From Candidatus Rifleibacterium amylolyticum (GTDB taxonomy: Bacteria; Muiribacteriota; Ozemobacteria; Ozemobacterales; Ozemobacteraceae): 64,000 bases of DNA. The stretch lies in assembly GCA_009917695.1 (NCBI GenBank), contig JAACJG010000001.1, forward strand, positions 455,219 through 519,218, written 5' to 3'. Below are positions 8,254-34,839 of the stretch, one piece after another (position 1 is the stretch's first letter; each line of letters starts with the position of its first letter). The position numbers and the translations under genes were made by a program. A model generated the notes under the pieces. That model had not been told where the DNA came from. It did not search any database and saw only the letters and a program-made list of their open reading frames with translations.

Positions 8254-11187
8254 TTGCTGACCTTCATACTTCTCTCACTCGCTTTTATCGGTGGAATGGG
8301 CGTTGCCGTGATTACCGGTATCATGGCGAGTGGTCTGCTGCTGGTGTTGACCTGCGTTTTTCTTCTCTGTGCCATTATTCCTCTGGTTTTCAAACATGGC
8401 AATATTCTTAGCCCCGGCTTTTACAGGTCATTACGTGAAGACGAAGAAGCAATACCTGTATTGAGCATGATTTTTTTCATGCTAACTATGGTCATGTTCG
8501 GCTCTTATCGGTATGTTTCAGAACTGCGCAACGATTATGCTACGCATTTCAAGACGATCTGCGAGAAACATGACGAGGCGACGAACTGGCGAATACGCGG
8601 CCGCATAATCGAAGAACCCAAGCTGCGCGGTGATTATCTCGAAGTTCTGATTCAGCCGGAAACCATGCGTAAGGTAGAGCGCCGCCGTGTGCGGGTTAAC
8701 AACGAAACTGGTTCGCGTAAGGGTGGGGGGACCTACGAAAACGTTGAGCACAGCTCAGATCAGCTGACAGTTAGCGGCGGCCTGCTGATGGCACAGGTTT
8801 TTGAAGATAATGAAGTTTTTCGCGAAGTGGATTTTAACCAGACCGTAGAGATCGAAGGTCAGCTCAGCGAAGCTTCTGAACGGCGTAATCCCGGCGCCAT
8901 GGATTATCGCCTGCATTTGCGAAACCGCGGCATTTACCGGACAGTTAGAATTACGCCACGCCGGGCGGTTATGAGGATTGTCGATCAGCAGGATTCAGGC
9001 GCTATCTGGTACCGCTTTGCACTTTATGTTAAGAACGAAGTGCTCAAGGTTATCAAGCAGACTATGCCTTACCCTGAATCCAGTTTCCTCGGCGGGGTTC
9101 TGCTCGGCCTCAAAGGCGGTCTGCCGCCCAAGGTTTCGCAGGAATTCAGAATGACCGGAGTTTCACACGTTCTGGCGGTCTCAGGCCTGCATGTAACTAT
9201 TATCGCCGGACTGCTTTACGGAATATTTGCGATGTTTCGCATTCCGCTGCGCATTTTTGCTCCACTCATCGTGTTTTCGCTGTTTACCTTCGCCATGATC
9301 GTTGGCTGGCCCAGTTCTGCGGTTCGCGCTGCCTTGATGAACAGTCTGTTTATATTGTCGATGGCCTATCTCAAGGATTATGGATTCAAGATGTCGGTGC
9401 TTTTCTCGCTGTGCGTAGCGTGCGACTACATTCTTTTCATGAGCCCGCTGCAACTTACCGAACCCAGTTTTGTTCTCTCGGTAATGGCGATATATGCCCT
9501 GGCGATGTTTTCTGACCCGTCAGCGAAAATTCTCAGGCGAATGTTGCGCGGGCCTGGCCTCGCCTTTGCCTTTCTTGCCACCATGGCCTTTTTTGTCGCG
9601 GTCGTACTGAAAAAAGATCTGGTACTGCATCCCTATTTTTTCCCGGCGACTTTTGTCTATATAATTTTTGTCTGCTATGTCTCGATGCGTCTGTCAGATC
9701 GCTCTACCTTTCAAAGCTTTGCATTTGAAATGCTGCCGGGCTGGCTGCAGGGTTTTCTGGCTGCCCAGATAGCCATTCTTGTCGCTATGATGTTGCCGCT
9801 TTCGGCATTTTACTTCGGACAGATGTCACTGGCAGCCCCCGTTGCCAACCTGATCGCTATTCCTCTCATCGGTCTGATCGTTCAGATTGGCCTTATTGCC
9901 GGTCTTATCGGGGCATTCATTCCAGGGATCGGCATCTATCTGGCTCTATTACTCAATGCCGCCAACTGGCTGGCGGTTAAATTCTTTCTCGGTATGGCTT
10001 CGTTCTTCGCTGCGCTGATTCCCTTTCCGCGCATTTCTCAGCCCAGCTTCAGTGAGCTGGTAATCTATTATCTGTTGCTGCATGTGGTTTACTTCCACAG
10101 TCAGATCAAGACATGGGTACTCGCCATTTATGGCGCCGTCAGCGAAGTCTGGAATGAACCTGAGTATCGCAACTCGCTGTCAATCTTTGCCATTTTCGTC
10201 GTCATAGTCGTTGTTGCCGGGTCGGTCGCCTTTTTGAGCAGTATCGAGCGTCAGCCCGATCTGCGCCTGACCATGCTCGATGTCGGCTTTGGCTCGTCGC
10301 TTATGATCGAGGGCGATGGCCGGGTGGCGCTGGTCGATTCAGCTCTTAATGACACTCTCGGCGGCATGGATCGCGGCGAACGTGTAATTCAGCCGGCGCT
10401 TTCCGGCAAACAGGTCAGAGAAATCGATGCGGTGATTCTCAGTTCGGCATTGCCTGAGCGCATTTCTGGCTTGAGTTCGGTTTTCTCTTCATACAGAGTC
10501 AACCGTATTTATACGCCATTCCCTCTCGCTACCGATGGCGTTCGCGTCGATTTCGAGCAGTATGTCAGACTTTTTGCCTTCGGTGACATAAAGCTGGAAA
10601 GGCGACTGAAAGCCGGTCAGAATGCAGGTATTCCGCCTGGCTATTTCTGGGAGCTTGCTTACGAATCTTATAACCGGTTGATTGAAGATGTCCATCGTTA
10701 CAAGATTCCGGTCAAACATATTAAAGCTGGCGATAAGTTCACCGAAGCCGGCGTGACCATCGAAGTATTACATCCAGCCTCTACCAGAGACAGTTTTCAG
10801 CAGTATTACGATGGATTGATTCTAAAGCTGAGCCGCGGTGCGCATAATTTTGCTTATATTTCAGGCAACGCGCATCCGCTTGAGAGCGATATCAGCTTTA
10901 AAGCCGATTTTGTCTTTGTCGCAGACATGCCTTATCCTTACGAAGCATTCGAAAACTATGTCAAGAGTTCTAACCCAGAGGGCGTAGCGATAAGTTACCG
11001 CTTTCCATCGGCCTGGTTAATGGAAAATTACCATCTTTCCGGCGCGATAACATCGCGTAGTCGCAGTTATATGCCAAGATTCAGGCAACTTCCCTTTCCA
11101 GTTTATCTGACCTCAGAAAACGGGGCGATTCAGGTGGACCAGCTTCGTGGCAGCCTGAACACCCGGGTATTTGTTAAGGAAGAGTAG
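8254..11187 (+). CDS. comEC: ComEC/Rec2 DNA-uptake channel with degenerate C-terminal metallo-beta-lactamase domain
   Basis: 977 residues from a TTG start supported by AGGA 6 bases upstream and the overlapping neighbour. N-terminal membrane helices (1-85), a DUF4131/OB-like region (about 100-240), the Competence domain with many helices (about 260-620; MTGVSHVLAVSGLHVTIIAGL is the family hallmark) and a C-terminal MBL fold (about 665-960). ComEC carries single-stranded DNA across the inner membrane during transformation. The MBL part is odd: the usual DVGQGD reads DVGFGSS, the HxHxDH metal site reads SSALPERISGL, and the later TGD motif reads SGNAH, so the nuclease domain should be dead. An intact MBL protein lies two genes downstream. 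Confidence 0.92.
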   Translation: MLTFILLSLAFIGGMGVAVITGIMASGLLLVLTCVFLLCAIIPLVFKHGNILSPGFYRSLREDEEAIPVLSMIFFMLTMVMFGSYRYVSELRNDYATHFKTICEKHDEATNWRIRGRIIEEPKLRGDYLEVLIQPETMRKVERRRVRVNNETGSRKGGGTYENVEHSSDQLTVSGGLLMAQVFEDNEVFREVDFNQTVEIEGQLSEASERRNPGAMDYRLHLRNRGIYRTVRITPRRAVMRIVDQQDSGAIWYRFALYVKNEVLKVIKQTMPYPESSFLGGVLLGLKGGLPPKVSQEFRMTGVSHVLAVSGLHVTIIAGLLYGIFAMFRIPLRIFAPLIVFSLFTFAMIVGWPSSAVRAALMNSLFILSMAYLKDYGFKMSVLFSLCVACDYILFMSPLQLTEPSFVLSVMAIYALAMFSDPSAKILRRMLRGPGLAFAFLATMAFFVAVVLKKDLVLHPYFFPATFVYIIFVCYVSMRLSDRSTFQSFAFEMLPGWLQGFLAAQIAILVAMMLPLSAFYFGQMSLAAPVANLIAIPLIGLIVQIGLIAGLIGAFIPGIGIYLALLLNAANWLAVKFFLGMASFFAALIPFPRISQPSFSELVIYYLLLHVVYFHSQIKTWVLAIYGAVSEVWNEPEYRNSLSIFAIFVVIVVVAGSVAFLSSIERQPDLRLTMLDVGFGSSLMIEGDGRVALVDSALNDTLGGMDRGERVIQPALSGKQVREIDAVILSSALPERISGLSSVFSSYRVNRIYTPFPLATDGVRVDFEQYVRLFAFGDIKLERRLKAGQNAGIPPGYFWELAYESYNRLIEDVHRYKIPVKHIKAGDKFTEAGVTIEVLHPASTRDSFQQYYDGLILKLSRGAHNFAYISGNAHPLESDISFKADFVFVADMPYPYEAFENYVKSSNPEGVAISYRFPSAWLMENYHLSGAITSRSRSYMPRFRQLPFPVYLTSENGAIQVDQLRGSLNTRVFVKEE

Positions 11188-11190
11188 ATC

Positions 11191-11808
11191 ATGGTTCTCA
11201 CCAGACTAGAAAAAATAGCCTTTGCCGGACTGGTTCTGCTGTTGTGTCTCGGTATTCTATTGTTAATCGGCAAGGTCAGTGTCGTTCGCAGCAAAAACCG
11301 GCAACTCGCCGTGCAGATTCAGGATATCGCCGTGTTGACCGATCAGACTGTTCTGGTAAAGGGTGACTATTATGACGAAGAAGAGAACGCCGGCAAGCTC
11401 AATCTCAACCGCACCGACATCAACAGCATCAAGGCGTTGCCCGGGATGACGCCGACTCTTGCCCGGCGCATTCATGAATTCGTTCAGCAACGTGGCCAGG
11501 TTAAAGAGATGAACGAACTGCTGGGCGTGCAGGGTCTCACCAAAAGACGTCTGCGCGAACTCGAAAAATACGCGACAGTTGTTGGCGGCCACTCAGGTCA
11601 GGCCGCCTGGGGTGACAAACTCAATCTCAATTTTGCCAGTTTCGAAGAAATCAATGCCCTGCCTGGCGTTGGCAAGAAGCTGGCTGAGAAAATCATCGAG
11701 TTTCGCAATAATAACGGCGGGTTTTTCTCGCTCGAAGATCTTAAAGAAGTTCCAGGGCTGACTGAAAAGACCATCAAAAAGTTCATCGACCGGGTAGAGG
11801 TGAAATAG
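11191..11808 (+). CDS. comEA: ComEA-like DNA-binding protein with two helix-hairpin-helix domains
   Basis: 205 residues, starting 3 bases after comEC. One N-terminal membrane helix (FAGLVLLLCLGILLLIGKV) anchors a periplasmic part with two ComEA-type HhH units: LNLNRTDINSIKALPGMTPT at about 69-88 and LNLNFASFEEINALPGVGKK at about 145-164, the second ending in VPGLTEKTIKKF. ComEA is the receptor that binds incoming double-stranded DNA. Tandem HhH units are seen in some long ComEA proteins. Its place between comEC and an MBL protein supports a competence operon. Confidence 0.88.
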   Translation: MVLTRLEKIAFAGLVLLLCLGILLLIGKVSVVRSKNRQLAVQIQDIAVLTDQTVLVKGDYYDEEENAGKLNLNRTDINSIKALPGMTPTLARRIHEFVQQRGQVKEMNELLGVQGLTKRRLRELEKYATVVGGHSGQAAWGDKLNLNFASFEEINALPGVGKKLAEKIIEFRNNNGGFFSLEDLKEVPGLTEKTIKKFIDRVEVK

Positions 11809-11811
11809 AGC

Positions 11812-12759
11812 ATGACCAGATTCGGTTACGAACAAAAATCATTTCAGTCGAAGAAAACCAATTTTGTTTTTGCTGTCATGCTGATTCTTGTCTTTTTTGT
11901 CTGGGCGCTACTGCTCAGCCCTGATCACGGCGGACTGGTAACGATAAACATCACTCCCGAGCTGCGTGTTGATTTCATCAACGTTGGGCAGGGCGATGCC
12001 ATTCTGATCCGCACTCCGATGGGCAAGAACTACCTTATCGACGGCGGCGCCAACATTCCGGTGACCGAGGCGCGCCGCGAAGGCCGCGAGCTGACGCATA
12101 ACTATCTGCGCAGCATCGGCGTGAGCCGCCTCGATGGCGTGGTGATCACTCACTGGCACAACGACCATCTCGGCGGTCTGCTGCCCGTGCTCAGGCTTTA
12201 TGAGGTAGACGCTGTTTATGAGCCGCCAGGAAAGTTTGAAACCGAAGCCTATAAGGATTTTGAAGCGATCTGCAGCAAGCAGCATATAAAAAGGATTACC
12301 ACCAAAGCCGGCGATGTGCTTGAGTGGGGTAACGAGCTGTTCGTTCAGGTGCTTCACCCGGAAAAGCCTCTCAGCAGCAAAGAATATTCTGATGTAAATA
12401 ACCTTTCTATTGTTCTTCTGCTTCGTTACGGCAAGGTGCAGATGCTTTTAGCCGGCGACATCGAAGAAGATGCCGAGCGCGAAGTTATGAAATATGGCGA
12501 AGCCATTAAAAGTCAGATATTGAAAGTTCCACACCATGGGGCTGATACCAGCGATTATTTCAGGTTCCTCCAGATGGTTGCGCCCGAGGTTGGTGTGATC
12601 ATGGTGGGCGCCAACAATGCCTTCAAACACCCGTCGCCAAGAACTCTCAGCGGTTACGAGAGAGTCGGCACCAAAATCTATCGCACCGACCGCCACGGCA
12701 ATATCCGTCTGCTGGTCGGCGGAAAAACTCAGCAGGATTACAGCTTCAAACTCGATTAG
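11812..12759 (+). CDS. Stand-alone ComEC-type metallo-beta-lactamase-fold hydrolase
   Basis: 315 residues with an N-terminal membrane helix (FVFAVMLILVFFVWALLL), so the catalytic domain is likely outside the inner membrane. All MBL motifs missing from the neighbouring ComEC are present: VDFINVGQGDAILIRTP (about 50-66), VVITHWHNDHLGGL (HxHxDH, about 111-124), LLLAGDIEEDAE (about 210), VPHHGADTSD (about 236-245) and a final FKHPSP. The family degrades the non-transported strand in ComEC-type systems. Co-directional with comEC and comEA with a 3-base gap, so a trans-acting nuclease for uptake is the natural inference. Confidence 0.85.
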   Translation: MTRFGYEQKSFQSKKTNFVFAVMLILVFFVWALLLSPDHGGLVTINITPELRVDFINVGQGDAILIRTPMGKNYLIDGGANIPVTEARREGRELTHNYLRSIGVSRLDGVVITHWHNDHLGGLLPVLRLYEVDAVYEPPGKFETEAYKDFEAICSKQHIKRITTKAGDVLEWGNELFVQVLHPEKPLSSKEYSDVNNLSIVLLLRYGKVQMLLAGDIEEDAEREVMKYGEAIKSQILKVPHHGADTSDYFRFLQMVAPEVGVIMVGANNAFKHPSPRTLSGYERVGTKIYRTDRHGNIRLLVGGKTQQDYSFKLD

Positions 12760-12842: not shown

Positions 12843-12872
12843 TTGACCTGAGACTTTAAGCCCAACTATACT
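12843..12872 (+). promoter_or_regulatory. Sigma-70 promoter of the DHH/Clp1 operon
   Basis: TTGACC (12843-12848) and TATACT (12867-12872) are 18 bp apart, about 33 bp before the ATG at 12906, which has GAAAGGA as ribosome-binding site. Confidence 0.65.
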
Positions 12873-12905: not shown

Positions 12906-14330
12906 ATGCAGGAAGCAGTCATTTTGCAACAACAGTTCAAGGATGTAGAGGGCTATCAGGCTCAGTGGAATCGCCTGAAAGAAGGCAGCACAGGTCTTCA
13001 GAAGATTCTTCAGGTGATAGAAGAGCCTTCTACCGCTCTGATTTTCAGCCATGACGACCCGGATGGAATTACCAGTGGCCTGATTTTCAGGCGCACACTC
13101 GAAAAGAAAGGCTGGAAAGTAACGCACAAGCTGCCGGAAGGATTCATGCTGCAGCCGGATCAGCTGGAAAAGGCCATGCAGGAATGTCCTGGCGCCAAAG
13201 CTATTTTTCTGCTCGACAAGGGCACGCTTGCCCCTTATGACAAGTATGCTGAGAAAATGCCGGTTTATATTATCGACCATCACCCGGCACCGGCATTGCC
13301 TGGTAAATGTGTATACTTCAACCCGAGTGTTCCGGCCTATACCTGGTGCTCGACTTCGATTCTTGCCCACGGAATAGCTACTCTCAGCGGCACTCGCGAT
13401 AACTACGACGATTTTCTCTGCCTGATGGGCCTTAAGGGCGACTGGGCGATCGAACCAGTAATAGGCATGCTGTCAGACTTCGCCAAGCCATTTTTTGTCG
13501 AGCACGCCCAGCAGTTCAAAAATCTGCTGACTCTTGTAAAAGAGCGCCCGACTCAGTTCGACGCCGAACAGAGAGACTTCACCTCACTGTTGTCTCGCGT
13601 GACCGAATTCGTGCATGCTACCGGTGGCGGCGGCTTTTCGTATTTTTATCATGATCGCGAAGATAGCCTCAAGAACGTTGACCATGCCGAATGCATTGCA
13701 ACCGCTCTTGCTGCAATAGCAGACAAGGCTGAGCAGTTGACCAGAATCAAGAGTCTCGATGAGTTTGTAAGCCTGCTGCCACAGCCACAGAAGGGTCTGC
13801 TCGAAAAGATATTCAATTACTTTCTGCAGGACTGGGAAAGTGCCAGCAGCATGCTCAATTCATCAACGCGTGCTTTGCAGCTCGGCGACACCGCCATCTA
13901 TCTGTTTGTTGGCCCCAGAGTGCCTCTGCTGCCGATGATTGGCTCGATCAAGCTGTTTGATCTCAGACAGAAGGCTGGCGATAAACTTGCGCAGATCATC
14001 ATGGTCAGCTCAGTCAGTTCTGATTACACTCATGTATCAGTGCGTGGTTCTGGTGACCGTGTCCATTCCGGCAAGATCTGCGGTGAACTCCAGGATTCAA
14101 TGCAGGCTCGCTATGCTGATTACAAAGACAAAATCAGCGGTGGCGGCCATCCCAAAGCAGCAGAATGCACAGTCAAAACCGACAAGGTTCCGTTCATGAA
14201 CGTGCTTACCCGGGTAACCGAAGTCTTGAGCGAAATGCAGACACTCGATGCCCAGGCCAGAAGCGGCGGCCTCAACGACACTCAGAAGGCCCGTGCCGAC
14301 AAGCTTGGGCTCGAATATCTCAAAAACTGA
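12906..14330 (+). CDS. DHH/DHHA1 phosphoesterase (RecJ-like)
   Basis: 474 residues. DHH-superfamily motifs are intact: I, IFSHDDPDGITSGL (about 47-60); II, IFLLDKGTL; III, YIIDHHPAP (about 120-128). A C-terminal DHHA1-type motif reads GGGHPKAAECTV (about 412-423). The family comprises Mn-dependent nucleases and phosphodiesterases, including RecJ exonucleases and archaeal RecJ/GAN-like proteins. It lacks the long OB domain of bacterial RecJ, so it is closer in size to the short archaeal type. First gene of a three-gene unit ending in a Clp1-like polynucleotide kinase, which hints at nucleic-acid end processing. Confidence 0.85.
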   Translation: MQEAVILQQQFKDVEGYQAQWNRLKEGSTGLQKILQVIEEPSTALIFSHDDPDGITSGLIFRRTLEKKGWKVTHKLPEGFMLQPDQLEKAMQECPGAKAIFLLDKGTLAPYDKYAEKMPVYIIDHHPAPALPGKCVYFNPSVPAYTWCSTSILAHGIATLSGTRDNYDDFLCLMGLKGDWAIEPVIGMLSDFAKPFFVEHAQQFKNLLTLVKERPTQFDAEQRDFTSLLSRVTEFVHATGGGGFSYFYHDREDSLKNVDHAECIATALAAIADKAEQLTRIKSLDEFVSLLPQPQKGLLEKIFNYFLQDWESASSMLNSSTRALQLGDTAIYLFVGPRVPLLPMIGSIKLFDLRQKAGDKLAQIIMVSSVSSDYTHVSVRGSGDRVHSGKICGELQDSMQARYADYKDKISGGGHPKAAECTVKTDKVPFMNVLTRVTEVLSEMQTLDAQARSGGLNDTQKARADKLGLEYLKN

Positions 14331-14341
14331 AGGAATTGCTG

Positions 14342-14758
14342 ATGTCATTCAAAGAAACTGATTTCCCTGCTCTGATAAAGTATCTTAAAAAAATCGTCGA
14401 AGAAGAACGAGATCCCATGCTGGTTAAAGAGCTGGTAACTCAGCTCGTTAAAATGTACGAAGATGTTCCCCTCTATCCTGGTATTGTCAATATGTGCATT
14501 TTTGGTGTGGCCAAAACGGTCAAGCCAGAAGAAGTGCAGGTTGGCCAGCGGGTTTTTATAAGAAACCACGATGACTGCTACTGCGGCACCATTGACAGCA
14601 AAGACGGCGATGGCATCGTGCTCAAAGGCGTCAAGTCCGTTACCAGCGAAGATGAACTCGATCTCGGATATCGCGAAATGCAAAAAGTGACTGTCATCAA
14701 CAACGATGCTCTTAAAGAAATGTGGCCGTCACTGGTCTTCGACAAGGAGCAGAAATAA
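14342..14758 (+). CDS. Unknown 138-aa protein between DHH and Clp1-like genes
   Basis: Starts at the ATG at 14342 with AAGGA 7 bases upstream; longer in-frame starts would lie inside the DHH gene. The N-terminal 60 residues look helical (LIKYLKKIVEEERDPMLVKELVTQLVKMYED); residues about 65-115 alternate like a small beta-barrel (VQVGQRVFIRNHDDCYCGTI, DGIVLKGVKSV). No signal peptide or membrane segment. The stop overlaps the next start by one base. I do not recognise the family; the barrel could bind RNA or protein, but this is only a guess from pattern and context. Confidence 0.75.
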   Translation: MSFKETDFPALIKYLKKIVEEERDPMLVKELVTQLVKMYEDVPLYPGIVNMCIFGVAKTVKPEEVQVGQRVFIRNHDDCYCGTIDSKDGDGIVLKGVKSVTSEDELDLGYREMQKVTVINNDALKEMWPSLVFDKEQK

Positions 14759-16011
14759 TGCAGTTGAATATCAAAAAAACCGAGTTCTTTCTGTTGAATG
14801 GTTCTGCTACCGTTAAGGTCGATTCCGGCGCCATCGAGATAATCGGTGCCCGTGTAGCTTCCGGCGAACAGGTAAAGGTTCCGGTCGGCAAGAAAATTCC
14901 GCTGCTTGGCATCGAAGACGCAGTTTTGACTATCGAAGCTCCCGAAGAAGCTCTGACAAAAATGGAAGCCAGCTCGATCCCGGTAGAATGGGATGAACTC
15001 GCGGACAAAATCGCCGCAGAAAAAAAAGCCGGCAGTCTCTACAAGATTCTCGTGCTTGGCGAAGTAGATACCGGCAAAACTTTTTTCAGCACTTATCTGG
15101 CAAATCGTCTGTTGGCCAAAGTCGGCAAGACTGCCATTCTCGATTGCGACACCGGTCAGTCTGACATCGGTTGCCCAGGCACGTTTGGCATGCTTCTGCT
15201 GGCAAAACCGGCCATATTTCTGACTGAGCTCGAACCAACGCACATGTATCTGCTTGGCGCTCATTCTCCTGGCCTGCACTTCGTCCCGGCTCTTACCGGT
15301 CTGGTCGAAATGCTGCACAAGGCTGAAAAAGAAGCCGATGCTCTGATCATCGACACAACCGGCTGGGTTCAGGGTGATGGCGGTCGTGCCATCAAAAAGG
15401 CCAAACTCGACATGGTTCAGCCCGACAAGGTGATACTCATGCAGCGCGGCACCGAACTCGAGCATCTGGTAAAACATCTGCCGGCCGAAAAGATCGTTCG
15501 TCTGCCAGTGTCAAAAAAGGCGTCAGCGACAAGTCAGATGGATCGCAAGGAACTGCGCGAACTCGTAAGCCGTCGATATTTTGCCGATGCCAGGGTTTTC
15601 GAAATACCTTTCCGTCAGGTGTACACCGATCGCTGTTACTTTCTGACCGGTACAAAAATCGAGCTCGAAGGCACGCTGCATGCCGAAAAACTCTCCGGCT
15701 GGGAAGGTACACTGGTTGTTACTTCCGGGCCATTGATGCCTGAACTCACCAAAAGCTGGCCGAAAGACACCGGTATGATTCGCAATTTCATCGCCGGTAA
15801 TGAAAAGGGACTGATGGTGGCTCTTCTTGATGAACATCAGAATATGCTGGCCGTTGCCCGTCTTGAAGAGATGGACTTCCTTAACAATAACTTCCGGCTG
15901 CGCTCAAATTACAAGGGCGATATCGGCAAGGTTAAAGGAATTCAGTTCGGTTCTCTCAAAATCACTGAAGCCGGTAACGAAGCAGGTTTTATCGAACCAG
16001 GCTCGTTCTGA
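14758..16011 (+). CDS. Clp1/Grc3-family polynucleotide 5'-kinase-like protein
   Basis: 417 residues, ATG overlapping the previous TAA. An N-terminal beta domain (1-85) is followed by a P-loop kinase core: Walker A LVLGEVDTGKTFFSTYLANR (about 98-117), TAILDCDTGQSDIGCPG (about 130-146) and Walker B ALIIDTTGW (about 200-208), then a C-terminal beta domain (about 290-417). The D-x-D-x-G-Q-x-D-x-x-x-P-G signature is that of the Clp1/Grc3/Nol9 group, which phosphorylates RNA or DNA 5'-hydroxyl ends and is best known in eukaryotes and archaea. Its operon with a DHH nuclease suggests repair or processing of nucleic-acid ends. Confidence 0.8.
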   Translation: MQLNIKKTEFFLLNGSATVKVDSGAIEIIGARVASGEQVKVPVGKKIPLLGIEDAVLTIEAPEEALTKMEASSIPVEWDELADKIAAEKKAGSLYKILVLGEVDTGKTFFSTYLANRLLAKVGKTAILDCDTGQSDIGCPGTFGMLLLAKPAIFLTELEPTHMYLLGAHSPGLHFVPALTGLVEMLHKAEKEADALIIDTTGWVQGDGGRAIKKAKLDMVQPDKVILMQRGTELEHLVKHLPAEKIVRLPVSKKASATSQMDRKELRELVSRRYFADARVFEIPFRQVYTDRCYFLTGTKIELEGTLHAEKLSGWEGTLVVTSGPLMPELTKSWPKDTGMIRNFIAGNEKGLMVALLDEHQNMLAVARLEEMDFLNNNFRLRSNYKGDIGKVKGIQFGSLKITEAGNEAGFIEPGSF

Positions 16012-16033: not shown

Positions 16034-16064
16034 GACCGCTTCGGCGCTTCTGGCCGGAGCGGTC
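16034..16064 (+). terminator. Terminator of the DHH/Clp1 operon
   Basis: A 12-bp stem, GACCGCTTCGGC with GCCGGAGCGGTC (one G-T pair), a 7-base loop, then TTTCAT. It lies 22 bases after the stop at 16011; the U-tract is short. Confidence 0.6.
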
Positions 16065-16297: not shown

Positions 16298-16472
16298 TTG
16301 ATCCACAACAAAACACAAGAGAGTTAAAGTTTGCTATCGAAAAAATTTATTATTTAACAAACTTTAGTCGCTCTTAGTCGCAATAAAAGAATTCCAGAGA
16401 GATTTTTCCCATACACATCTTCGTGTACATATTTTGGCGTGCATTTTTAACATCTATAAGCAGGGAGCAGTC

Positions 16473-18665
16473 ATGAAGCAGGGTCGCGAATTGCAGTTCA
16501 TCGAGAATCGTCAGGGCAACATAGTACCATTCAACCCGGAAAAAATCCGTTCAGCTATCGAGAGAGCCGGCAGGGCAACCGGTGAATTCGGTATGGTTGA
16601 TTCGATGCGAATGGCCAGCCAGGTCGTAAACATTCTGGCGCATCGCCATCAGTCAGGAACTCCAAATGTTGAAGAAGTTCAGGACGTAGTCGAACATGTA
16701 CTGATTGCCAACAACTATTTCACGACCAATCGCTCTTACATTGTTTATCGTGAGCAGCACAAGCAGATGCGTGAAGGCCGCCGCTCGATGGTTGACAGCA
16801 TCAGCTCTATCAATGAATATCTCGGTCACCAGGACTGGCGCGTAAATGCCAATGCCAATCAGGGCTATTCGCTGGGTGGCCTCATACTCAATGTTGCTGG
16901 CAAGGTAACTGCAAACTACTGGCTGTCACATGTTTACAATCCTGAAATCGGCGATGCTCACCGCGAAGGCGACCTGCATATTCACGATCTCGATATGCTT
17001 TCCGGTTACTGTGCCGGATGGTCTCTGCGAACCCTGCTGCAGGAAGGCTTCAACGGCGTGCCGGGCAAGGTCGAAGCAGGCCCGCCCAAGCACTTTTCGA
17101 GTGCACTCGGTCAGATGGTCAACTTCCTCGGTACTCTCCAGAATGAGTGGGCTGGTGCACAGGCTTTTTCTTCTTTCGATACCTACCTTGCGCCCTACGT
17201 AAGGCTTGATGGTATCGGCTACGACCAGGTATTTCAGGGTATACAGGAATTCGTTTACAATCTCAACGTGCCTTCTCGCTGGGGTACCCAGACTCCATTC
17301 ACCAACCTGACCCTCGACTGGAACTGCCCGGAAGACCTCAAGACCCAGCATCCACTGGTTGGCGGCAAACATGTCGATTTCACCTACGGTGACCTGCAGA
17401 CCGAAATGGATCTGATCAACCGCGCCTTCATCGATGTAATGAGCGTTGGCGACAATCGTGGTCGTGCTTTTACTTTCCCGATTCCTACCTATAACATTAC
17501 CAAAGACTTCGACTGGAACCATCCCAATTGCCAGCCGCTGTTCGAAATGACCGCCAAATACGGTCTGCCGTATTTTCAGAACTTTATCAATTCAGATCTT
17601 GAGCCGAATATGGTGCGCTCGATGTGCTGCCGTCTCCAGCTCGACCTGCGCGAACTGCTCAAGCGCGGCAACGGTCTTTTCGGCTCAGCTGAGCAGACTG
17701 GTTCGATCGGCGTCGTCACCCTCAACCTGGCCCGTCTCGGCTACATGTTCAAGGGCAACTATGAAGCATTGACCACCAGACTCGAGCACCTGATGGATCT
17801 TTCAAAGAAGAGCCTCGAAGTCAAACGCAAGGTAATTCAGGCGCGAATCGACAGCGGTCTGTTCCCTTACACCCGCCGCTATCTTGGCACTCTGCGCAAC
17901 CATTTCTCAACCATCGGTATCAACGGCATGAATGAATGCATTCGCAATTTTTCAGAAAATGCCTATGACATTTCTCATCCCCAGGGTGTCGAACTGGCGC
18001 AGAGAATTCTTGATTTCATGCGCGAAAAGATCGTGGAGTTTCAGGTCGAAACCAGCCATCTCTACAATCTGGAAGCGACTCCGGCCGAAGGTGCAACCCA
18101 TCGTTTTGCCCGCGAAGACCGCAAGCGTTTCCCCGAAATCATTCAGGCCGGTACTCCGCAGGCCGCTTATTACACCAATTCGAGCCAGTTGCCGGTTGAT
18201 TACCAGGGCGATCTGTTCGATGTAATGCGTCATCAGGAAAAGCTTCAGACCAAATACACAGGCGGCACCGTTCTGCATCTGTATGTTGGCGAGCGCATTC
18301 CCGATGCTGAATCCTGCAAACGTCTGGTTCAGAAGACTCTCACTCAGTTCAGACTGCCTTATATCACTATTACCCCGACTTTCAGCATCTGCCCGAAGCA
18401 TGGCTACATAGCCGGGGAACATCAGTATTGCCCGACCTGCGATGCAATCGAAACGAAAAAAGCGGTTGCCATTGCCCAGGCCGAAGGTCAGGAACTGGCA
18501 CCAGAGAACGTTATTCTCACCGACGAAAATCGTCAGGTCTGCGAAGTCTGGACACGCGTAATGGGCTATTTCCGCCCGGTTTCGCAGTTCAACGCCGGCA
18601 AAAAGAGTGAATACAGCGACCGCGTTCTCATGCGCCCAAGTGAACTGGTAAGAGAAGTCGTCTGA
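16473..18665 (+). CDS. nrdD: Anaerobic (class III) ribonucleoside-triphosphate reductase
   Basis: 730 residues from the ATG at 16473 (AGGGAG upstream; the in-frame start at 16434 lacks a site). An N-terminal ATP-cone (IENRQGNIVPFNPEKIRSAI) precedes the ten-stranded barrel; SMCCRLQLDL contains the likely catalytic cysteine, a zinc site is seen at CPKHGY...CPTCD (about 639-656), and the glycyl-radical loop RVMGYF has Gly near 698. The enzyme makes deoxynucleotides from NTPs without oxygen. The activase gene follows 4 bases later. Strong marker of anaerobic growth. Confidence 0.97.
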   Translation: MKQGRELQFIENRQGNIVPFNPEKIRSAIERAGRATGEFGMVDSMRMASQVVNILAHRHQSGTPNVEEVQDVVEHVLIANNYFTTNRSYIVYREQHKQMREGRRSMVDSISSINEYLGHQDWRVNANANQGYSLGGLILNVAGKVTANYWLSHVYNPEIGDAHREGDLHIHDLDMLSGYCAGWSLRTLLQEGFNGVPGKVEAGPPKHFSSALGQMVNFLGTLQNEWAGAQAFSSFDTYLAPYVRLDGIGYDQVFQGIQEFVYNLNVPSRWGTQTPFTNLTLDWNCPEDLKTQHPLVGGKHVDFTYGDLQTEMDLINRAFIDVMSVGDNRGRAFTFPIPTYNITKDFDWNHPNCQPLFEMTAKYGLPYFQNFINSDLEPNMVRSMCCRLQLDLRELLKRGNGLFGSAEQTGSIGVVTLNLARLGYMFKGNYEALTTRLEHLMDLSKKSLEVKRKVIQARIDSGLFPYTRRYLGTLRNHFSTIGINGMNECIRNFSENAYDISHPQGVELAQRILDFMREKIVEFQVETSHLYNLEATPAEGATHRFAREDRKRFPEIIQAGTPQAAYYTNSSQLPVDYQGDLFDVMRHQEKLQTKYTGGTVLHLYVGERIPDAESCKRLVQKTLTQFRLPYITITPTFSICPKHGYIAGEHQYCPTCDAIETKKAVAIAQAEGQELAPENVILTDENRQVCEVWTRVMGYFRPVSQFNAGKKSEYSDRVLMRPSELVREVV

Positions 18666-18669
18666 TTCA

Positions 18670-19416
18670 ATGAAAAAAGGTTCTGATAAAATTCTGGTCG
18701 GGGGCTTGCAGCCCCTGACCATGATAGATTTCCCCGGTCGGCTGGCCAGCGTCGTCTTTACGCAGGGCTGTAACCTGCGTTGTCGGTTCTGTTATAACCG
18801 GACTCTGCTGGGTGAAAAGGCTGCTGATCCGCTCTCCTGGGAATCTGTCATCGATTTCCTGCGAGACCGCCAGGGATTCATCGAAGGCGTTGTTTTCAGC
18901 GGCGGCGAACCCTGCCTGCAACCAGGTTTGCTTGACGCTCTGCGCGAAGTGCGGGAACTTGGTTTCGATGCTGCTCTGCATACCAATGGCTTTTTTCCTG
19001 ATATAGTTGAAGCGGCCCTGGCTGAGCGACTATTGCAGTTCATTGCGGTCGATTTCAAGGCGCCCTTTGAAAAATACCAGTCGATCACCCGTCAGCCGGT
19101 TGATCGCGTGGCATATGGCCGGGTTGCTGATATAATAGTTGCTGCCGGCATCAAACATGAATACCGCACAACCGTTCACCCCGGTCTGCTTTCGGACTCT
19201 GATATAATGCTGATGGCAGACTGGCTTGAAGAGAAGAAAATCAGCAACTATGCCATTCAGAAATTTAAATACGGTGAGGCGCTAGATCAGTCTTTGCCGC
19301 CGGTAAATGCTTCGTTTCTTCAGGCTGCGACGCTTTTTAAACTGCGCGCGCGCTTTACCGGGTTTACTTTGCGCTCGGACGACGTCAGTGTCGACAGTCT
19401 CAAACAAGCCGCCTGA
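18670..19416 (+). CDS. nrdG: Anaerobic ribonucleotide reductase activating protein (radical SAM)
   Basis: 248 residues. The 4Fe-4S binding motif is C34-N-L-R-C38-R-F-C41, followed by VFSGGEPCLQPGL (SAM-binding GGE motif) and HTNGFFPD. The protein generates the glycyl radical on NrdD using SAM. Its length and the N-terminal GGLQPLTMIDFPG signature match the NrdG2-type activases. It begins 4 bases after nrdD and ends 13 bases from a convergent glycosyltransferase gene without an obvious terminator. Confidence 0.94.
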   Translation: MKKGSDKILVGGLQPLTMIDFPGRLASVVFTQGCNLRCRFCYNRTLLGEKAADPLSWESVIDFLRDRQGFIEGVVFSGGEPCLQPGLLDALREVRELGFDAALHTNGFFPDIVEAALAERLLQFIAVDFKAPFEKYQSITRQPVDRVAYGRVADIIVAAGIKHEYRTTVHPGLLSDSDIMLMADWLEEKKISNYAIQKFKYGEALDQSLPPVNASFLQAATLFKLRARFTGFTLRSDDVSVDSLKQAA

Positions 19417-28906: not shown

Positions 28907-28925
28907 TTTATTCAGGGGAGTGTCG

Positions 28926-30143
28926 ATGCATAGAATCAAAGTCAGATATGCTGATGAACAGGGGCGCACCCGCGAAGAAGTATTTGAAACCCGTTCTTTG
29001 AGCGAGCTACGCGCGGCCTTTAACAGCAAGGGTTATTACATTCTTTCTGAGGCCGTTGAAAAAGGCAGTTTCAGCGAACAGTTGCGCGAGGCTCTCACTT
29101 TCAAGGCAAGTGTGTCGATCAAAGAGCTTAATGAATTTACCAAACTTTTGCGTACCCTTCTTAAGTCCGGCATGGCCATTACTGATGCCTTTGAAGTGCT
29201 GCTCGATGATGCTGAAGATACCCAGTTGAATATGGCTTTGCGCCAGGTCAACAGTGACATAAAAGAAGGCGTGTCGCTCAGCGCAGCTCTGGGCAGGCAT
29301 TCAGATGTTTTTCCCGATATCTATATAAAAACAATTGTCGCCGGCGAAAAGGCCGGCGCTCTCGAGAATATTCTCAAACGCCTCTCTGAGTATTTTACCA
29401 GTTCAATAGCAGTCAGGCGCAAAGTCGTGGCCGCGCTGATCTACCCGGCAATATTGCTTGCTGTTTCAAGCCTGGCTGTTACCTACATGATAGTCGCAGT
29501 AGTTCCTGAATTTGCCGGGCTTTTCAATAGTCTTGGCGCGCCACTGCCGATGATTACTTCTTTGCTTCTCTCAGTTTCTGCATGGCTTGGGCAGTGGTTC
29601 TGGCTGCTGATTTTCGGCCTGATGCTCGCGGTAGCCGGTGTCATCAGCTTCTCACGCTCGCCTGACGGCCGTCAGAAAATAGATGCCTTTAAACTAAAAG
29701 TGCCGCTATTGCGCGATCTCGAAATGAATTTCGCTTACAGTCAGTTCGCCCGCACCATGGCGACCATGGTCGAAGGCGGTATTCCGATTCTCGACAGTCT
29801 GGCGGTAGTAATTGACAGTATGGAAAACCGGGTTATTGCCATGCGTTACTCGGTTCTTCCTGAGCTGCTGGAAAAGGGACTCGGATTTGGCAAGGCCCTG
29901 AAAAGCATTCCGGAAACTCCCAAAATGATGGTCAGGGTTATTCAGGTCGGCGAAGAATCAGGTAATCTTGGCGAAATGCTCGAGAATATGGCTGACCATT
30001 ATGACGAAGAGATAACCGAACTGACCGACATGATAACATCGCTTATTGAACCTATACTCTTTCTGGCGATGGCTCTGGTCGTAGGCACACTGGTTGTTGC
30101 CCTGCTTTATCCTGTTCTCACGGCCGCCTCGCAAATCAACTAG
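28926..30143 (+). CDS. pilC: Type IV pilus inner-membrane platform protein PilC
   Basis: 405 residues from the ATG at 28926 (AGGGGAG upstream). Two T2SF domains are visible: residues about 60-185 (FTKLLRTLLKSGMAITDAFEVL...ALIYPAILLAVSSLAVTYMIV) and about 265-395 (FARTMATMVEGGIPILDSLAVV...LIEPILFLAMALVVGTLVVALL), with three membrane helices. PilC links the assembly ATPase to the pilus base. Unlike the divergent GspF-like pair at the window start it is canonical. First gene of an eight-gene pilus operon. Confidence 0.94.
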   Translation: MHRIKVRYADEQGRTREEVFETRSLSELRAAFNSKGYYILSEAVEKGSFSEQLREALTFKASVSIKELNEFTKLLRTLLKSGMAITDAFEVLLDDAEDTQLNMALRQVNSDIKEGVSLSAALGRHSDVFPDIYIKTIVAGEKAGALENILKRLSEYFTSSIAVRRKVVAALIYPAILLAVSSLAVTYMIVAVVPEFAGLFNSLGAPLPMITSLLLSVSAWLGQWFWLLIFGLMLAVAGVISFSRSPDGRQKIDAFKLKVPLLRDLEMNFAYSQFARTMATMVEGGIPILDSLAVVIDSMENRVIAMRYSVLPELLEKGLGFGKALKSIPETPKMMVRVIQVGEESGNLGEMLENMADHYDEEITELTDMITSLIEPILFLAMALVVGTLVVALLYPVLTAASQIN

Positions 30144-30157
30144 GATGGATTTCAGAA

Positions 30158-32047
30158 ATGGAAAGCTTCAAGGAATTTTTAATCAAGAAAAGAATCGTTG
30201 ACAGCAGCAAGGCCGAAAAGCTGGCAAAAGAATCAGGCGGGCAGATCGATCTGGTTTTGCAGCGCCTGGCCGGCGACGGCGAGGTTTCTGATGCAAACCT
30301 GGTTAAAGCTTTTGCCGCAACCTTTCGTAAGAAGACTCTCTGCGAAATTCTGGTTGAAGAAGGTTTTATCACACTCGAATTCATTCAGCAGCTGATTGGA
30401 GAGTTTGGTGCGATTCCCGGCAACATCGGTCAGATTCTGATCGAGCGCAAGGTGATCGGCGAAGAAGAATTTGCCCGCGCCGTAGCCATGGAACTGGGCA
30501 TAGAATATGTCGATCTCTCTCATTACGAGGTCGATGACGAACTTTTCAACAGCATCGATGTCGCTCTGATGCGGCGCTATTGTTTTGTGCCGCATCAGCG
30601 CAGTGCCCGCGACATCTATCTGATCATGCATGATCCCGGCAATGTCGACGCCATAGAAGAGCTTGAAGTGCAGCTCGGCCTGCCGATAATGCCGATGGTC
30701 GCTTCGAGAATGGCTATTCAGAAACTGCTCAGTCTGATGATCGAAACCAGCCTTGATTCAAAGGTCGTATTCGGCGATTTAGAGAATTTTCCACCACTTG
30801 AAGTGGTTATCGAGGAAGATGAAGAAGAGACACCTGCGGCCGGTGTTGCCAAAACTGCCGGATTCGCCAGTGAAACGCCGGTTATCAGAATGGTCGATGC
30901 CATAATTCTCAAGGGTGTTCGCAAACGTTCGAGCGACATACACTTTGAGGTCTATGAGTCTCAGCTAAAGGTTAAATATCGTATCGACGGCGTGCTGTTC
31001 GAGGTCTTGTCGGATGTTGAACCACGATTGCGCGGCCCGATCATTTCGCGCCTCAAAGTCATGGCACAGCTCGACATCGCCGAAAAGCGCGTTCCTCAGG
31101 ATGGCCGCTTCAAACTGCGCATCGATGATCGATTCGTCGATTTCCGCGTCTCAGTATTGCCTTCGATCTATGGCGAGACCGTGGTTTTGCGCATTCTCGA
31201 CAAGTCAGCTCTCGGCCTGGATCTGCAACGTATCGGTCTCGATGGCGAAGATCTGTTGCAGTTCAAACGCAATGTAAAAAAGCCTTATGGCATGGTTCTC
31301 GTCGCTGGCCCGACCGGATCGGGCAAAACCACGACACTTTACTCTGCCATCAAGTTCGTTCATACCAACAAAGACAAGTTCATAACGATCGAAGACCCCG
31401 TCGAATATCAGCTGCCAGACATAGTTCAGATTGCGGTCAACGAGAAAAAAGGTCTGACTTTCAGTTCGGGTCTGCGTTCTATCGTGCGCCAGGATCCTGA
31501 CAAAATAATGGTCGGCGAGATTCGCGACCCCGAAACAGCCAAAATAGCGATCAATGCGGCTCTTACCGGTCATCTCGTCTTCAGTTCGATACATGCCAAC
31601 AATGTCATCGATGCAATTTCCCGCCTTGAGAACATGGAAATCGACCCATACGAGTTTGTCAGTTCATTCAACCTGATCATGTCACAGCGCCTGCTGCGCC
31701 TTAACTGCAAGAACTGCATCACCGATGACGACAGTATCACCGAAGAGATGAAGCGGTTGACCATCGATTTCAAACAGTATGAAAATGTTGCATTCAAGCG
31801 TGGCAAAGGTTGTCGCTTCTGTCATGATACCGGCTATCAGGGTCGTTCCGGCATTTTCGAGGTTCTCGAAATGTCACCTTCGATCAAACAGATGATTCTG
31901 ACCCGCCAGTCGCCACTCGAAATAAGAAAGGCGGCGATGGAGCAGGGTATGGTGCCGTTACGCCGCGCCGGCTGGCAGAAGGTCGAAAAGGGGCTCACCA
32001 CTTTTGAAGAAATGAACCGCGTAACCTTTGAAGAAGGGGTGCTCTAA
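30158..32047 (+). CDS. pilB: Type IV pilus assembly ATPase PilB (GspE family)
   Basis: 629 residues. MshEN-like N-terminal domains (1-190), then the secretion ATPase core: VLVAGPTGSGKTTTLYSAIK (Walker A, about 380-399), TIEDPVEYQLP (Asp box), SGLRSIVRQDPDKIMVGEIRDPETA (Walker B region) and LTGHLVFSSIHAN (His box). A tetracysteine zinc site reads CKNC...CRFC (about 516-555), as in PilB rather than PilT. It powers pilus extension. Followed by pilM with a one-base overlap. Confidence 0.95.
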   Translation: MESFKEFLIKKRIVDSSKAEKLAKESGGQIDLVLQRLAGDGEVSDANLVKAFAATFRKKTLCEILVEEGFITLEFIQQLIGEFGAIPGNIGQILIERKVIGEEEFARAVAMELGIEYVDLSHYEVDDELFNSIDVALMRRYCFVPHQRSARDIYLIMHDPGNVDAIEELEVQLGLPIMPMVASRMAIQKLLSLMIETSLDSKVVFGDLENFPPLEVVIEEDEEETPAAGVAKTAGFASETPVIRMVDAIILKGVRKRSSDIHFEVYESQLKVKYRIDGVLFEVLSDVEPRLRGPIISRLKVMAQLDIAEKRVPQDGRFKLRIDDRFVDFRVSVLPSIYGETVVLRILDKSALGLDLQRIGLDGEDLLQFKRNVKKPYGMVLVAGPTGSGKTTTLYSAIKFVHTNKDKFITIEDPVEYQLPDIVQIAVNEKKGLTFSSGLRSIVRQDPDKIMVGEIRDPETAKIAINAALTGHLVFSSIHANNVIDAISRLENMEIDPYEFVSSFNLIMSQRLLRLNCKNCITDDDSITEEMKRLTIDFKQYENVAFKRGKGCRFCHDTGYQGRSGIFEVLEMSPSIKQMILTRQSPLEIRKAAMEQGMVPLRRAGWQKVEKGLTTFEEMNRVTFEEGVL

Positions 32048-33126
32048 TGAATCTTTATACCGAACTCATCGCCCTTGATATCGGCACCAGTTTTATCAAG
32101 CTGGTTTCTATCGATTACGGCCCCGGCAAACAGGGTTATATAGTCAAGAATCTCGAAATGAAAGAACTGCCACCCGGGCTTATTGGTGGCGATTTTACCA
32201 ACCCTTTCATCAGTGACATGCCGGTATTCAAAGATCTTCTCGCCGCCATGATCAAACGGGTTAAGCACAGCCGCCAGGGCTATGTCATTGGCCTGCCAGA
32301 CCGCTGGGTCAAGCTGCATCTCAACAATATGCAGCTGACTGAAAATGAGCGCAAGTCGCCAGAGTTCCTTTCCTGGCGCCTGCAAAAGAATCTGCCGATT
32401 CCTGACGGTATGCGGGTTATGGTTGACTTTCAGATTCTGCGCAATCTTCCGGGCGAACAGCCCGACACTTACCAGGTGCTGGCCGCAGCGGTAAAAGCCG
32501 ATATTATCGATATTCTGTCGCGAATCACAACTGATCTCGAAATGGAAGTGATGGCTTTTGACACTTCTTCGCTCGGCATATTCAACCTTTTCGAAGAGGT
32601 TTACCCCGAAAAGATTACCGAGCAGATCGTCGTAAATCTGCATGTTGGGCATGAGACAACCGTTATCAAGGCCTATTCGAATGGCTCCCTGCTTTATGAA
32701 CGCGTTATAGAAGTTGCCGGCGAGGAATTCGCCAAGATTATCAGCGAAATAGATGCGGTGAATCTCGAAAACGCGATGCGCGCCAAGGAAACTGAGAAGT
32801 TTTTCCCGGTTACCCGCGAAGACATTCAGACGTTGGTTGGAAAAAGGCAGCGTATCGATCGCATTTTCGGTAACTGGCTGCGCGAACTCAACGTGACTTT
32901 CCGCTTCTTTCAGGAAAAATTCAATGTCTCGCGGCTGCCAACCATATTCATGACTGGTGGCAGCACGTTGTTTCCAGGTCTCGAAAACTTTCTCAGCGAA
33001 TATTTCGAAACCAACTGCTTTTTGTTCAATCCTCTCAATGAGATTCCACTGGCAAAGAAGATCGACGCCAAGATGCTGGCCAAAGGCCCGGCTTTCGCAG
33101 CTTGCGTCGGCCTGCTGGCCAAATAG
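32047..33126 (+). CDS. pilM: Type IV pilus assembly protein PilM
   Basis: 359 residues, ATG overlapping the pilB stop. Actin-like fold: phosphate-1 loop LIALDIGTSFIKLVSIDYG at the N-terminus, EVMAFDTSSLGIFNLFEE, QIVVNLHVGHETTVIKAYSNG and the adenosine loop IFMTGGSTLFPGLENFL (about 298-314). PilM is a cytoplasmic ATP-binding protein that recruits PilN and joins the ATPase to the alignment complex. Confidence 0.92.
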   Translation: MNLYTELIALDIGTSFIKLVSIDYGPGKQGYIVKNLEMKELPPGLIGGDFTNPFISDMPVFKDLLAAMIKRVKHSRQGYVIGLPDRWVKLHLNNMQLTENERKSPEFLSWRLQKNLPIPDGMRVMVDFQILRNLPGEQPDTYQVLAAAVKADIIDILSRITTDLEMEVMAFDTSSLGIFNLFEEVYPEKITEQIVVNLHVGHETTVIKAYSNGSLLYERVIEVAGEEFAKIISEIDAVNLENAMRAKETEKFFPVTREDIQTLVGKRQRIDRIFGNWLRELNVTFRFFQEKFNVSRLPTIFMTGGSTLFPGLENFLSEYFETNCFLFNPLNEIPLAKKIDAKMLAKGPAFAACVGLLAK

Positions 33127-33135
33127 GGGGCGGCA

Positions 33136-33714
33136 ATGAAACACTATCTTAATTTCAAACCCTCGATACTGTTCAGAAAAGGCAGCAGCTTCATGCTCAA
33201 GACCTCACTGATCATTCTTTACGCAGTTCCGGTGAGTCTGGCAGTATTCTGGCTCTACAAATACTACGCAACTTCAGCGGTGAACTCATTTTACCGGGAG
33301 AACGTAGCTCAGCTCGACTCAAGAATCAGCGAGACTACCGGCGCGGTTAAAAAGATGTGCCCTTCGCCAGAAGATATTGACAGCAGCGAAAAGCTTTACT
33401 CTGATTACCGCAAAGTTTCAGCCGTCGGCCAGACATCATGGACAACACTGTTCAGTCGCCTGGAAAGACTGGCTCCTGCCGAGATGCGTTTCAAGCGGAT
33501 CAGTATCAAACCAGATAAGCTGGTTAAGGTAAGTATTGAAGGTGAAACAGTGCGTTTACAGCATTTAACCGGTTTTTTACAGGATCTGTTTTCAGAAAAG
33601 GTTTTTTCATCACCCAATCTTAAAAGCCATAACCGCAGCAAATCGGAAGGGGCCGATGTGATAGCGTTCAGTCTCGAAGTCGATTATGCCGGAGAAAAGG
33701 GGGAGCTGCCCTGA
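33136..33714 (+). CDS. pilN: PilN-like pilus alignment protein
   Basis: 192 residues: a short cytoplasmic N-terminus (MKHYLNFKPSILF; PilN family uses an INLLP-like segment to contact PilM), one membrane helix (LIILYAVPVSLAVFWLYKYY), a coiled region and a ferredoxin-like periplasmic domain with LAPAEMRFKRISIKPDKLVKVSIEGET. Divergent in sequence, but position and topology fit PilN. The stop overlaps the next ATG by one base. Confidence 0.8.
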   Translation: MKHYLNFKPSILFRKGSSFMLKTSLIILYAVPVSLAVFWLYKYYATSAVNSFYRENVAQLDSRISETTGAVKKMCPSPEDIDSSEKLYSDYRKVSAVGQTSWTTLFSRLERLAPAEMRFKRISIKPDKLVKVSIEGETVRLQHLTGFLQDLFSEKVFSSPNLKSHNRSKSEGADVIAFSLEVDYAGEKGELP

Positions 33715-34241
33715 TGAATCCGAACGAACTGGCAAAACTCAAAGAAAAAGCACCGGTTCCTCTTCTTCTGCTGTTGATTCTTTTCCTGTTGCCGGGCTTT
33801 CTGCTTGCTCCTGAAACAGAAGCTCTCAAACAATCAGCTAAAATTTATGACACCAGCCTCAAAAAGGCACGCGATCTGCGGCGCTTGCGCGAAAAGTATA
33901 CGATGCAGCAAACGCGTCTCGATAAGCTTGCACAGATCAAGAGTGATCTGCTGGCGGTGATCCCTCAGGAATCAGCTTTGCCTGAGATGATCGACCGTCT
34001 GCATGCCACTGCGGCTTCATGTTCGGTAATGGTCGATAATGTGCGTTATTCATTCAGTCCTGAATACGAAAAGCTGGCCGTGCCGGGTTATGATATAAAC
34101 ATGCATCTCAGTTCGAGCTATGACGGTATGAGAGCAATGCTGGCAGAACTCGAATCCATGCCGACCCCTGTTCTGATCAAAGAAATTTTGATGAACGAAT
34201 CAAGTCATTATGTTTTATCGATGAGGTTACTGGTAAAATGA
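33714..34241 (+). CDS. pilO: PilO-like pilus alignment protein
   Basis: 175 residues with one N-terminal membrane helix (PVPLLLLLILFLLPGFLL), a coiled-coil (residues 35-85) and a PilO-type periplasmic domain with IPQESALPEMIDRLHATAASCSV (compare IPxxxxxPxLLxxL in PilO). PilN and PilO form a heterodimer in the periplasm. ATGA overlap with the next gene. Confidence 0.8.
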   Translation: MNPNELAKLKEKAPVPLLLLLILFLLPGFLLAPETEALKQSAKIYDTSLKKARDLRRLREKYTMQQTRLDKLAQIKSDLLAVIPQESALPEMIDRLHATAASCSVMVDNVRYSFSPEYEKLAVPGYDINMHLSSSYDGMRAMLAELESMPTPVLIKEILMNESSHYVLSMRLLVK

Positions 34242-34837
34242 AAGAAACCAAACCCGTAGTAGAAATAGCCAGAAAGCATCGTGAAGATGTAATCGATACT
34301 TTGCAGCTCAGAAATAAAGAGCGAAGAGTGCTCTATACTCTTCTGCTGATTTTACTGGTAACTCTGGCCTATGAAAACAGCGCGTTTCTTTATGACCGGC
34401 TGATCGGCGCTGCCCACCCTCTACCCGAACTCGGCCAGCGTAAAAAGGCCCAGCTTAAGCAGGATATGATCAAGCCTCTTGAAAAAGCTCTTGTAGACGC
34501 TTCAGAAGACTATCCACAATACTGGGCGAGATTTTCGCAGAATCAGAAGCGCCTGACTGATGCTGCTGCCATGCTGGTCGAAGATGGCATGGCCGAAGAT
34601 GCGCTTGAGCTGGTAAAACTGGTCGTGGCCAGCATGAATGAGTTCTCAGCACATCCTGTTATCAAGGCGACAAAAAAGCTTGAGCGTCTTAACACAGAAA
34701 TGGCAACAATCCAGAGAATTCTCAAATTCAAGGCTGATTTAGAGGGCGTTGCACCCAAGCCTCTTGTTTTTACCCGCGATGCATCTGTCGCTGATGATCA
34801 GAGCCGTCGCAACCTTTTTGAATATTCTCTGAGGTAG
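34238..34837 (+). CDS. Unknown membrane protein in the PilP position
   Basis: 199 residues with one membrane segment (VLYTLLLILLVTLAYENSAFLY) and a helical periplasmic region. It sits where pilP usually follows pilO but shows neither a lipobox nor the PilP beta domain, so I do not call it PilP. Strict translational coupling (ATGA) with pilO argues for a part in the same machine, perhaps replacing PilP as the link to the outer membrane. Confidence 0.75.
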   Translation: MKETKPVVEIARKHREDVIDTLQLRNKERRVLYTLLLILLVTLAYENSAFLYDRLIGAAHPLPELGQRKKAQLKQDMIKPLEKALVDASEDYPQYWARFSQNQKRLTDAAAMLVEDGMAEDALELVKLVVASMNEFSAHPVIKATKKLERLNTEMATIQRILKFKADLEGVAPKPLVFTRDASVADDQSRRNLFEYSLR

Positions 34838-34839
34838 AG

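Follow-up and report, generated by a model that had tools for sequence, protein, structure and literature searches.

A conserved bacterial gene trio joins a Clp1/Grc3-family kinase homologue to a RecJ-fold phosphoesterase and a predicted small-barrel protein

A 64,000-nt stretch of the genome of Candidatus Rifleibacterium amylolyticum (Candidatus Riflebacteria, Ozemobacteraceae-type; contig JAACJG010000001.1, positions 455,219 to 519,218), referred to here as the window, contains three consecutive plus-strand genes. The first (12906-14330) encodes DHH, a 474-aa DHH/DHHA1 phosphoesterase; the second (14342-14758) encodes MID, a small protein of 138 aa; and the third (14758-16011) encodes KIN, a 417-aa homologue of the Clp1/Grc3-family polynucleotide 5'-hydroxyl (5'-OH) kinases. 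The coordinates given for this trio by an earlier reading of the DNA (the original prediction) are correct, as are the 11-base spacing between DHH and MID and the one-base overlap of the MID stop codon with the KIN ATG at 14758 (TAATG). A longer, GTG-initiated KIN taken from the list of open reading frames is unsupported; the ATG at 14758 agrees with the start sites of relatives.

The original prediction also assigned the trio a promoter at 12843 and a terminator at 16034, and both assignments hold in part. The promoter candidate, TTGACC-18 nt-TATACT (12843-12872, plus strand), is at chance level as a bare motif, with one match found versus 3.7 expected, but the footprint GTTGACCTGAGACTTTA(N)GCCCAACTATACT is identical in two congeners (G024 and G026) in which the remaining spacer has diverged, and the -10 element is retained in a third, more distant genome. 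The hairpin that follows KIN (16034-16064, plus strand) is stable (-28.1 kcal/mol, z -2.9) and is probably a terminator; its T tract is weak in the window genome, but three relatives (L022, L025, L027) carry hairpins with clear T runs in the same place 3' of KIN. Because the promoter footprint is conserved and KIN is followed by these hairpins, the trio is probably a transcription unit of its own. It would thus be separate from the comEC, helix-hairpin-helix (ComEA-like) and metallo-beta-lactamase-fold genes upstream (8254-12759, plus strand), which are usually linked to it and separable from it, and from the genes downstream (16434-19416, plus strand), which are linked in part of the family. 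The downstream genes are nrdD, the anaerobic ribonucleotide reductase gene assigned by Pfam, and a probable nrdG activase gene, assigned by its radical-SAM-type sequence and position only.

Placement of KIN in the Clp1/Grc3 family, as originally proposed, is borne out at the sequence level. KIN matches CLP1_P (PF16575) at 122 bits against a curated cut-off of 26.6 in Pfam, and at 125 bits in a whole-genome profile search in which it was the single CLP1_P gene of the window genome. A profile built from KIN and its relatives matches human Clp1 (E=5e-27), Caenorhabditis elegans clpf-1, NOL9 and GRC3. The alignment spans the N-terminal domain of human Clp1, with a weak C-terminal match to clpf-1 and NOL9; the matches to NOL9_N and CLP1_N are under cut-off (17 and 15 bits). 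By its sequence, KIN is probably a full-length family member. Like Clp1, Grc3 and NOL9, it has a P-loop kinase domain with an intact Walker A motif (GEVDTGKT), Walker B motif (DCDTGQSD), clasp (TTGWVQ, with the shared GWV) and lid (R-x3-R, both arginines present). Only genome G010 and the second kinase of genome G040 show changes at these residues, from which 5'-OH polynucleotide kinase activity is predicted. KIN differs from its better-known homologues in belonging to its own bacterial clade, marked by the signatures GWVQxDGGRA and, toward the C terminus, QFGSL...EAGFxEPG, and in having MID rather than Pcf11 or Las1 as its partner. In a tree, all kinases of intact MID loci fall into this clade (support 98/98), which is separate from the Clp1 proteins of archaea and Bacillota; the branching order of the latter is unsure, since the Bacillota row and several of the archaeal ones have long branches.

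The kinase alone is not new, because bacterial Clp1 kinases are already known (Saito 2019; PMC6777427); they were described as rare and scattered. Ts-Clp1 of Thermus is a proven 5'-OH RNA kinase that prefers RNA; it is a protein of ~27 kDa, compared with about 417 aa for KIN, and its lid is less conserved than that of KIN (PMC6777427). Two further observations concern Clp1-type genes elsewhere. The second KIN copy of G040 (L124:8156-9475, minus strand) is degenerate, with the P-loop GFSYTGKN, and follows an ADA-CDA gene pair without MID. Bathyarchaeal Clp1 genes (L071, L072, L074, L075, L076 and L078) lie just after a YqgF/DUF460-like gene, and their conserved surroundings include a RadB/Rad51-like ATPase gene, with some loci near genes for an XPD-type helicase and endonuclease III.

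DHH carries the conserved motifs HDDPDG, DHH and GGGHP; these and the KIN motifs had been read correctly from the DNA. The DHH domain scores 32 bits against a cut-off of 28.1, and DHHA1 scores 23.5 bits, just under its cut-off of 25.9. The AlphaFold model of the protein (pLDDT 92.9) has its best fold matches in archaeal RecJ2, GAN and RecJ, which span the whole protein, with 7ykv as the top structure (E=1e-14). DHH thus shares domains, catalytic motifs and predicted fold with RecJ, RecJ2, GAN and NrnA. It differs from them in its own helical insert and C-terminal tail, and its scores of 47 and 41 bits are far short of the respective NCBIfam equivalog cut-offs of 360 and 397 bits, which its orthologues in L061, L066 and L067 do not reach either; an hhalign comparison with a RecJ gave an alignment confined to the DHH half. 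Judged by its model, DHH is a RecJ-fold phosphoesterase of a separate, new subfamily, consistent with the phosphoesterase originally predicted. In the related enzymes, MjaRecJ2 shows 5' exonuclease activity on strands that are 5'-phosphorylated but not on those with a 5'-OH (PMC5615345), binding by NrnA requires a 5'-phosphate (PMC9757072), and RecJ carries a 5'-phosphate pocket (PMC4846377). Like these relatives, DHH is expected to bind a 5'-phosphate. At one locus (L122:5628-7847), a gene of the DHH subfamily adjoins one for a 740-aa RecJ whose DHH and DHHA1 domains are separated by an RNase_T (DnaQ-type) exonuclease domain.

MID matched no Pfam, NCBIfam, PHROG or PADLOC family above cut-off, including Pfam Sm. 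Weak PDB profile matches to designed helical repeats and to uL24 were rejected as unconvincing and likely compositional. The model of MID (pLDDT 83.7) consists of about 56 residues of helices followed by a five-strand small barrel. Nearly all of the 50 PDB matches listed by Foldseek are Sm/LSm proteins, the best having E=2e-3 and probability 1.0 over ~60 of the 138 residues. The likeness to Sm/LSm proteins lies in the barrel; the differences are the large helical N-terminal half, a conserved C-terminal WPxLxF and the marginal score. MID is a new, previously unnamed family, plausibly with a fold of a nucleic-acid-binding type. The suggestion that it is the nucleic-acid-binding part of the system therefore stands to the extent that such a fold is plausible.

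Gene order was analyzed in 40 genomes of the window phylum, with DHH orthologues defined by scores above 300 bits (other DHH proteins score at most 45 bits). KIN is present in 20 genomes, MID in 19 and DHH in at most 19, a count that includes two fragments at contig ends. All of these genomes belong to one family, and none of the 16 genomes of other families has the genes. Across the family the order DHH-MID-KIN is fixed, with the exception of G010 and G011, which have MBL-MID-KIN (MBL, the metallo-beta-lactamase-fold gene) and no DHH; the kinase of G010 has degenerate motifs. A separate case is G006 (L039:9891-10451), in which DHH is intact, MID is frameshifted and KIN is cut to its last 58 residues, as a result of either recent loss or misassembly. 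Outside the phylum, all intact bacterial relatives that were found have MID adjoining KIN, in genomes labelled Elusimicrobia, Endomicrobia, Caldiserica and Hydrogenedentes and in unnamed bacteria; KIN is present in six of six genomes of one small phylum and two of two of another. DHH lies immediately upstream of MID-KIN in L055, L066, L067 and L127. In L059, L061, L063, L070 and L110 it is also upstream but separated from the pair by a few genes, and in Endomicrobia it is at another place in the genome. Because the order of the trio is retained throughout the family and recurs in other phyla, it is not due to chance. The conservation of the three-gene order anticipated by the original prediction is thus observed, but the inseparable part is only MID-KIN: this pair is the invariant core, and DHH is a nearly constant third partner that may lie elsewhere or be lost.

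The partnership is also visible as co-occurrence. Among 248 Elusimicrobiota-type genomes, MID is found in six, KIN in the same six, and DHH in 13, including all six (Fisher p=6e-9 for DHH with MID-KIN, kinship being ignored). The trio of G040, one of these six genomes, resembles that of Riflebacteria, so G040 probably represents a mixed bin. In the same set of genomes, a different P-loop family, n11, is present in six of the seven DHH genomes that lack KIN and in none of the six that have it (p=0.005). In four of the KIN-less DHH genomes, n11 directly follows ADA, a slot held by MID-KIN in relatives. The n11 proteins are uncharacterized, about 395 aa long, with a P-loop kinase-like domain, weak AAA_33/zeta-type Pfam matches and no PDB profile match; examples are L120:13716-14900, L118:13531-14727 and L122:14519-15694, and the window genome has one at G000:C17:132458-133630. 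Because n11 and KIN coexist in Riflebacteria, at different places in the genome, any replacement of one by the other would be specific to the Elusimicrobiota-type phylum.

In L061, L063, L059, L070 and L110, the trio lies within long runs of nucleoside genes. The genes of these runs come from a set encoding adenosine deaminase (ADA), cytidine deaminase (CDA), MTAP/PNP, pyrimidine nucleoside phosphorylase (PyNP), a PfkB kinase and a dGTPase (dGTPase and CDA were assigned by reading the sequence, not by profile), and the runs of Elusimicrobiota also hold RecJ and a phosphopentomutase-type metalloenzyme. At several loci, MID-KIN is immediately preceded by ADA or ADA-CDA. The set also includes one or two copies of a pair formed by a TIM-barrel gene (xylose-isomerase-like, weakly CbiR/endonuclease IV-like) and a small P-loop kinase-like gene. 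The pair can occur twice per operon around DHH/ADA, as in L061 (2934-4541 and 6975-8560), and is also seen in L063, L117, L118 and L120.

These data suggest that DHH-MID-KIN may be a nucleic-acid end-activation and decay module that feeds nucleotide recycling, a reading to which we give nearly an even chance. KIN, with MID as the obligate partner that holds it, would use ATP to phosphorylate the 5'-OH ends of short single-stranded RNA, and perhaps those of DNA too. The DHH exonuclease would then grip the new 5'-phosphate, in the manner of RecJ, RecJ2 and NrnA, and degrade the primed strand to 5'-mononucleotides. The mononucleotides would be recycled, in other phyla by the salvage enzymes and, in Riflebacteria, perhaps by way of ribonucleotide reductase. 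Sequences and models establish the families, the intact motifs, the folds, the linkage and the co-occurrence; the kinase activity, its substrate and RNA preference, the direction of DHH, the physical complex and the role in recycling are predictions.

There is a parallel in eukaryotes, where the Grc3 kinase is followed by Rat1, a 5'-phosphate-dependent exonuclease, in a hand-over best known from rRNA processing. In both the Las1-Grc3 (RNase PNK) to Rat1/Xrn pathway and, by proposal, the bacterial trio, a 5'-phosphate made by a kinase is used by a nuclease that depends on it. The trio differs in having a DHH nuclease and a small-barrel partner in place of the HEPN nuclease Las1 and Xrn. Neither of the proteins encoded beside KIN is a HEPN protein by its model, MID being helices plus a barrel with Sm/LSm proteins as top matches and DHH having the RecJ fold. 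A bolder version, which we consider rather doubtful, is that MID, KIN and DHH form a physical machine in which the Sm-like MID presents 5'-OH RNA to KIN and the strand then passes to DHH. The machine would be a bacterial counterpart of the Grc3-to-Rat1 hand-over. It would give several candidate phyla a hitherto unknown 5'-OH-specific route of RNA decay and recycling, with Clp1 kinases and the unrelated P-loop kinase family standing in for each other.

Several observations weigh against the recycling module. MID resembles Sm/LSm proteins at marginal significance (E=2e-3, some 60 residues aligned), and the residues that it conserves most strongly (Y45-P46-G47, C52, W128-P129-L131 and F133), which may be contacts to KIN, lie outside the barrel. 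The main activity of RecJ2 is 3'->5', which needs no 5' kinase. G011 has a good-looking KIN without DHH, and the p-values for co-occurrence are overstated by the relatedness of the genomes. The substrates of the salvage partners are nucleosides, not oligonucleotides, and a tblastn search of the window and family loci found no salvage genes near the Riflebacteria trio.

In a different, though unlikely, explanation, KIN-MID is a kinase of nucleosides or other small molecules that converts nucleosides to 5'-monophosphates, while DHH serves the same pathway separately as a nanoRNase or a phosphatase of nucleotides. The position of MID-KIN directly after ADA or CDA in operons rich in nucleoside enzymes would fit, as would the filling of that slot by a different P-loop kinase family in KIN-less genomes. 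However, to our knowledge every Clp1-family enzyme acts on polynucleotides; KIN keeps the clasp and lid motifs, no salvage genes flank the trio in Riflebacteria, and the RecJ-type fold of DHH indicates oligo- or polynucleotides. It is very unlikely that the trio serves RNA maturation or repair, with KIN re-phosphorylating the 5'-OH ends that toxins or tRNA nucleases produce, for sealing or maturation, and DHH trimming them. While Clp1/Grc3 enzymes provide a precedent in tRNA and rRNA processing and MID is Sm-like, the operon genes examined included no RNA ligase, RtcB, archease or 3'-end phosphatase, and the context is salvage instead.

An end-processing or repair system had originally been suggested. 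A role in DNA end-processing or repair, perhaps the trimming by kinase and nuclease of the 5' ends of incoming DNA imported by ComEC, would agree with the RecJ fold of DHH, with the comEC and ComEA-like neighbours at most Riflebacteria loci and with the nrdD gene that some members of the family have downstream. We regard this role as quite unlikely. Repair is less favoured because, outside Riflebacteria, the genes sit in operons of nucleoside salvage or catabolism, and because the bacterial loci had no repair genes in view nearby except RecJ in some salvage operons. Moreover, the comEC block lies upstream of the conserved promoter of the trio; it is not beside the trio in G008 and G021, and none was seen beside it in other phyla. 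Finally, DHH, MID and KIN could be mere neighbours with separate jobs, co-inherited by descent, as the separation of DHH from MID-KIN in Endomicrobia and the presence of DHH without MID-KIN in seven genomes might suggest. This is highly improbable given that the trio recurs in several candidate phyla and that DHH, even if unlinked, is present in every checked MID-KIN genome uncut by a contig end, bar G010 and G011. A role in anti-phage defence was rejected: there was no PADLOC match, and searches of IMG/VR contigs and of plasmids found neither KIN nor MID.

Judged by the literature searched, the MID family, its obligate pairing with one clade of bacterial Clp1 kinases, the link to DHH and the salvage context seem to be new: we found no report tying Grc3 to DHH/RecJ, none tying Clp1 to an adenosine deaminase operon or DHH, and no bacterial role for Clp1 kinases. 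Such a role becomes testable now that one clade has an obligate partner, a nuclease linked to it and a consistent genomic context. If the recycling module is real, it would explain how some bacteria dispose of 5'-OH fragments on which 5'-phosphate-dependent nucleases cannot start, and it would mean that the kinase-then-exonuclease hand-over has an independent bacterial form.

Elsewhere in the window, an RNA-element search found no Rfam family or tRNA. Genes resembling those for type II/IV pilus assembly (PilC-, PilB- and pilin-like, judged by eye) lie at 28920-35641. With these genes and the comEC/ComEA-like genes in one window, the bacterium may be naturally competent.

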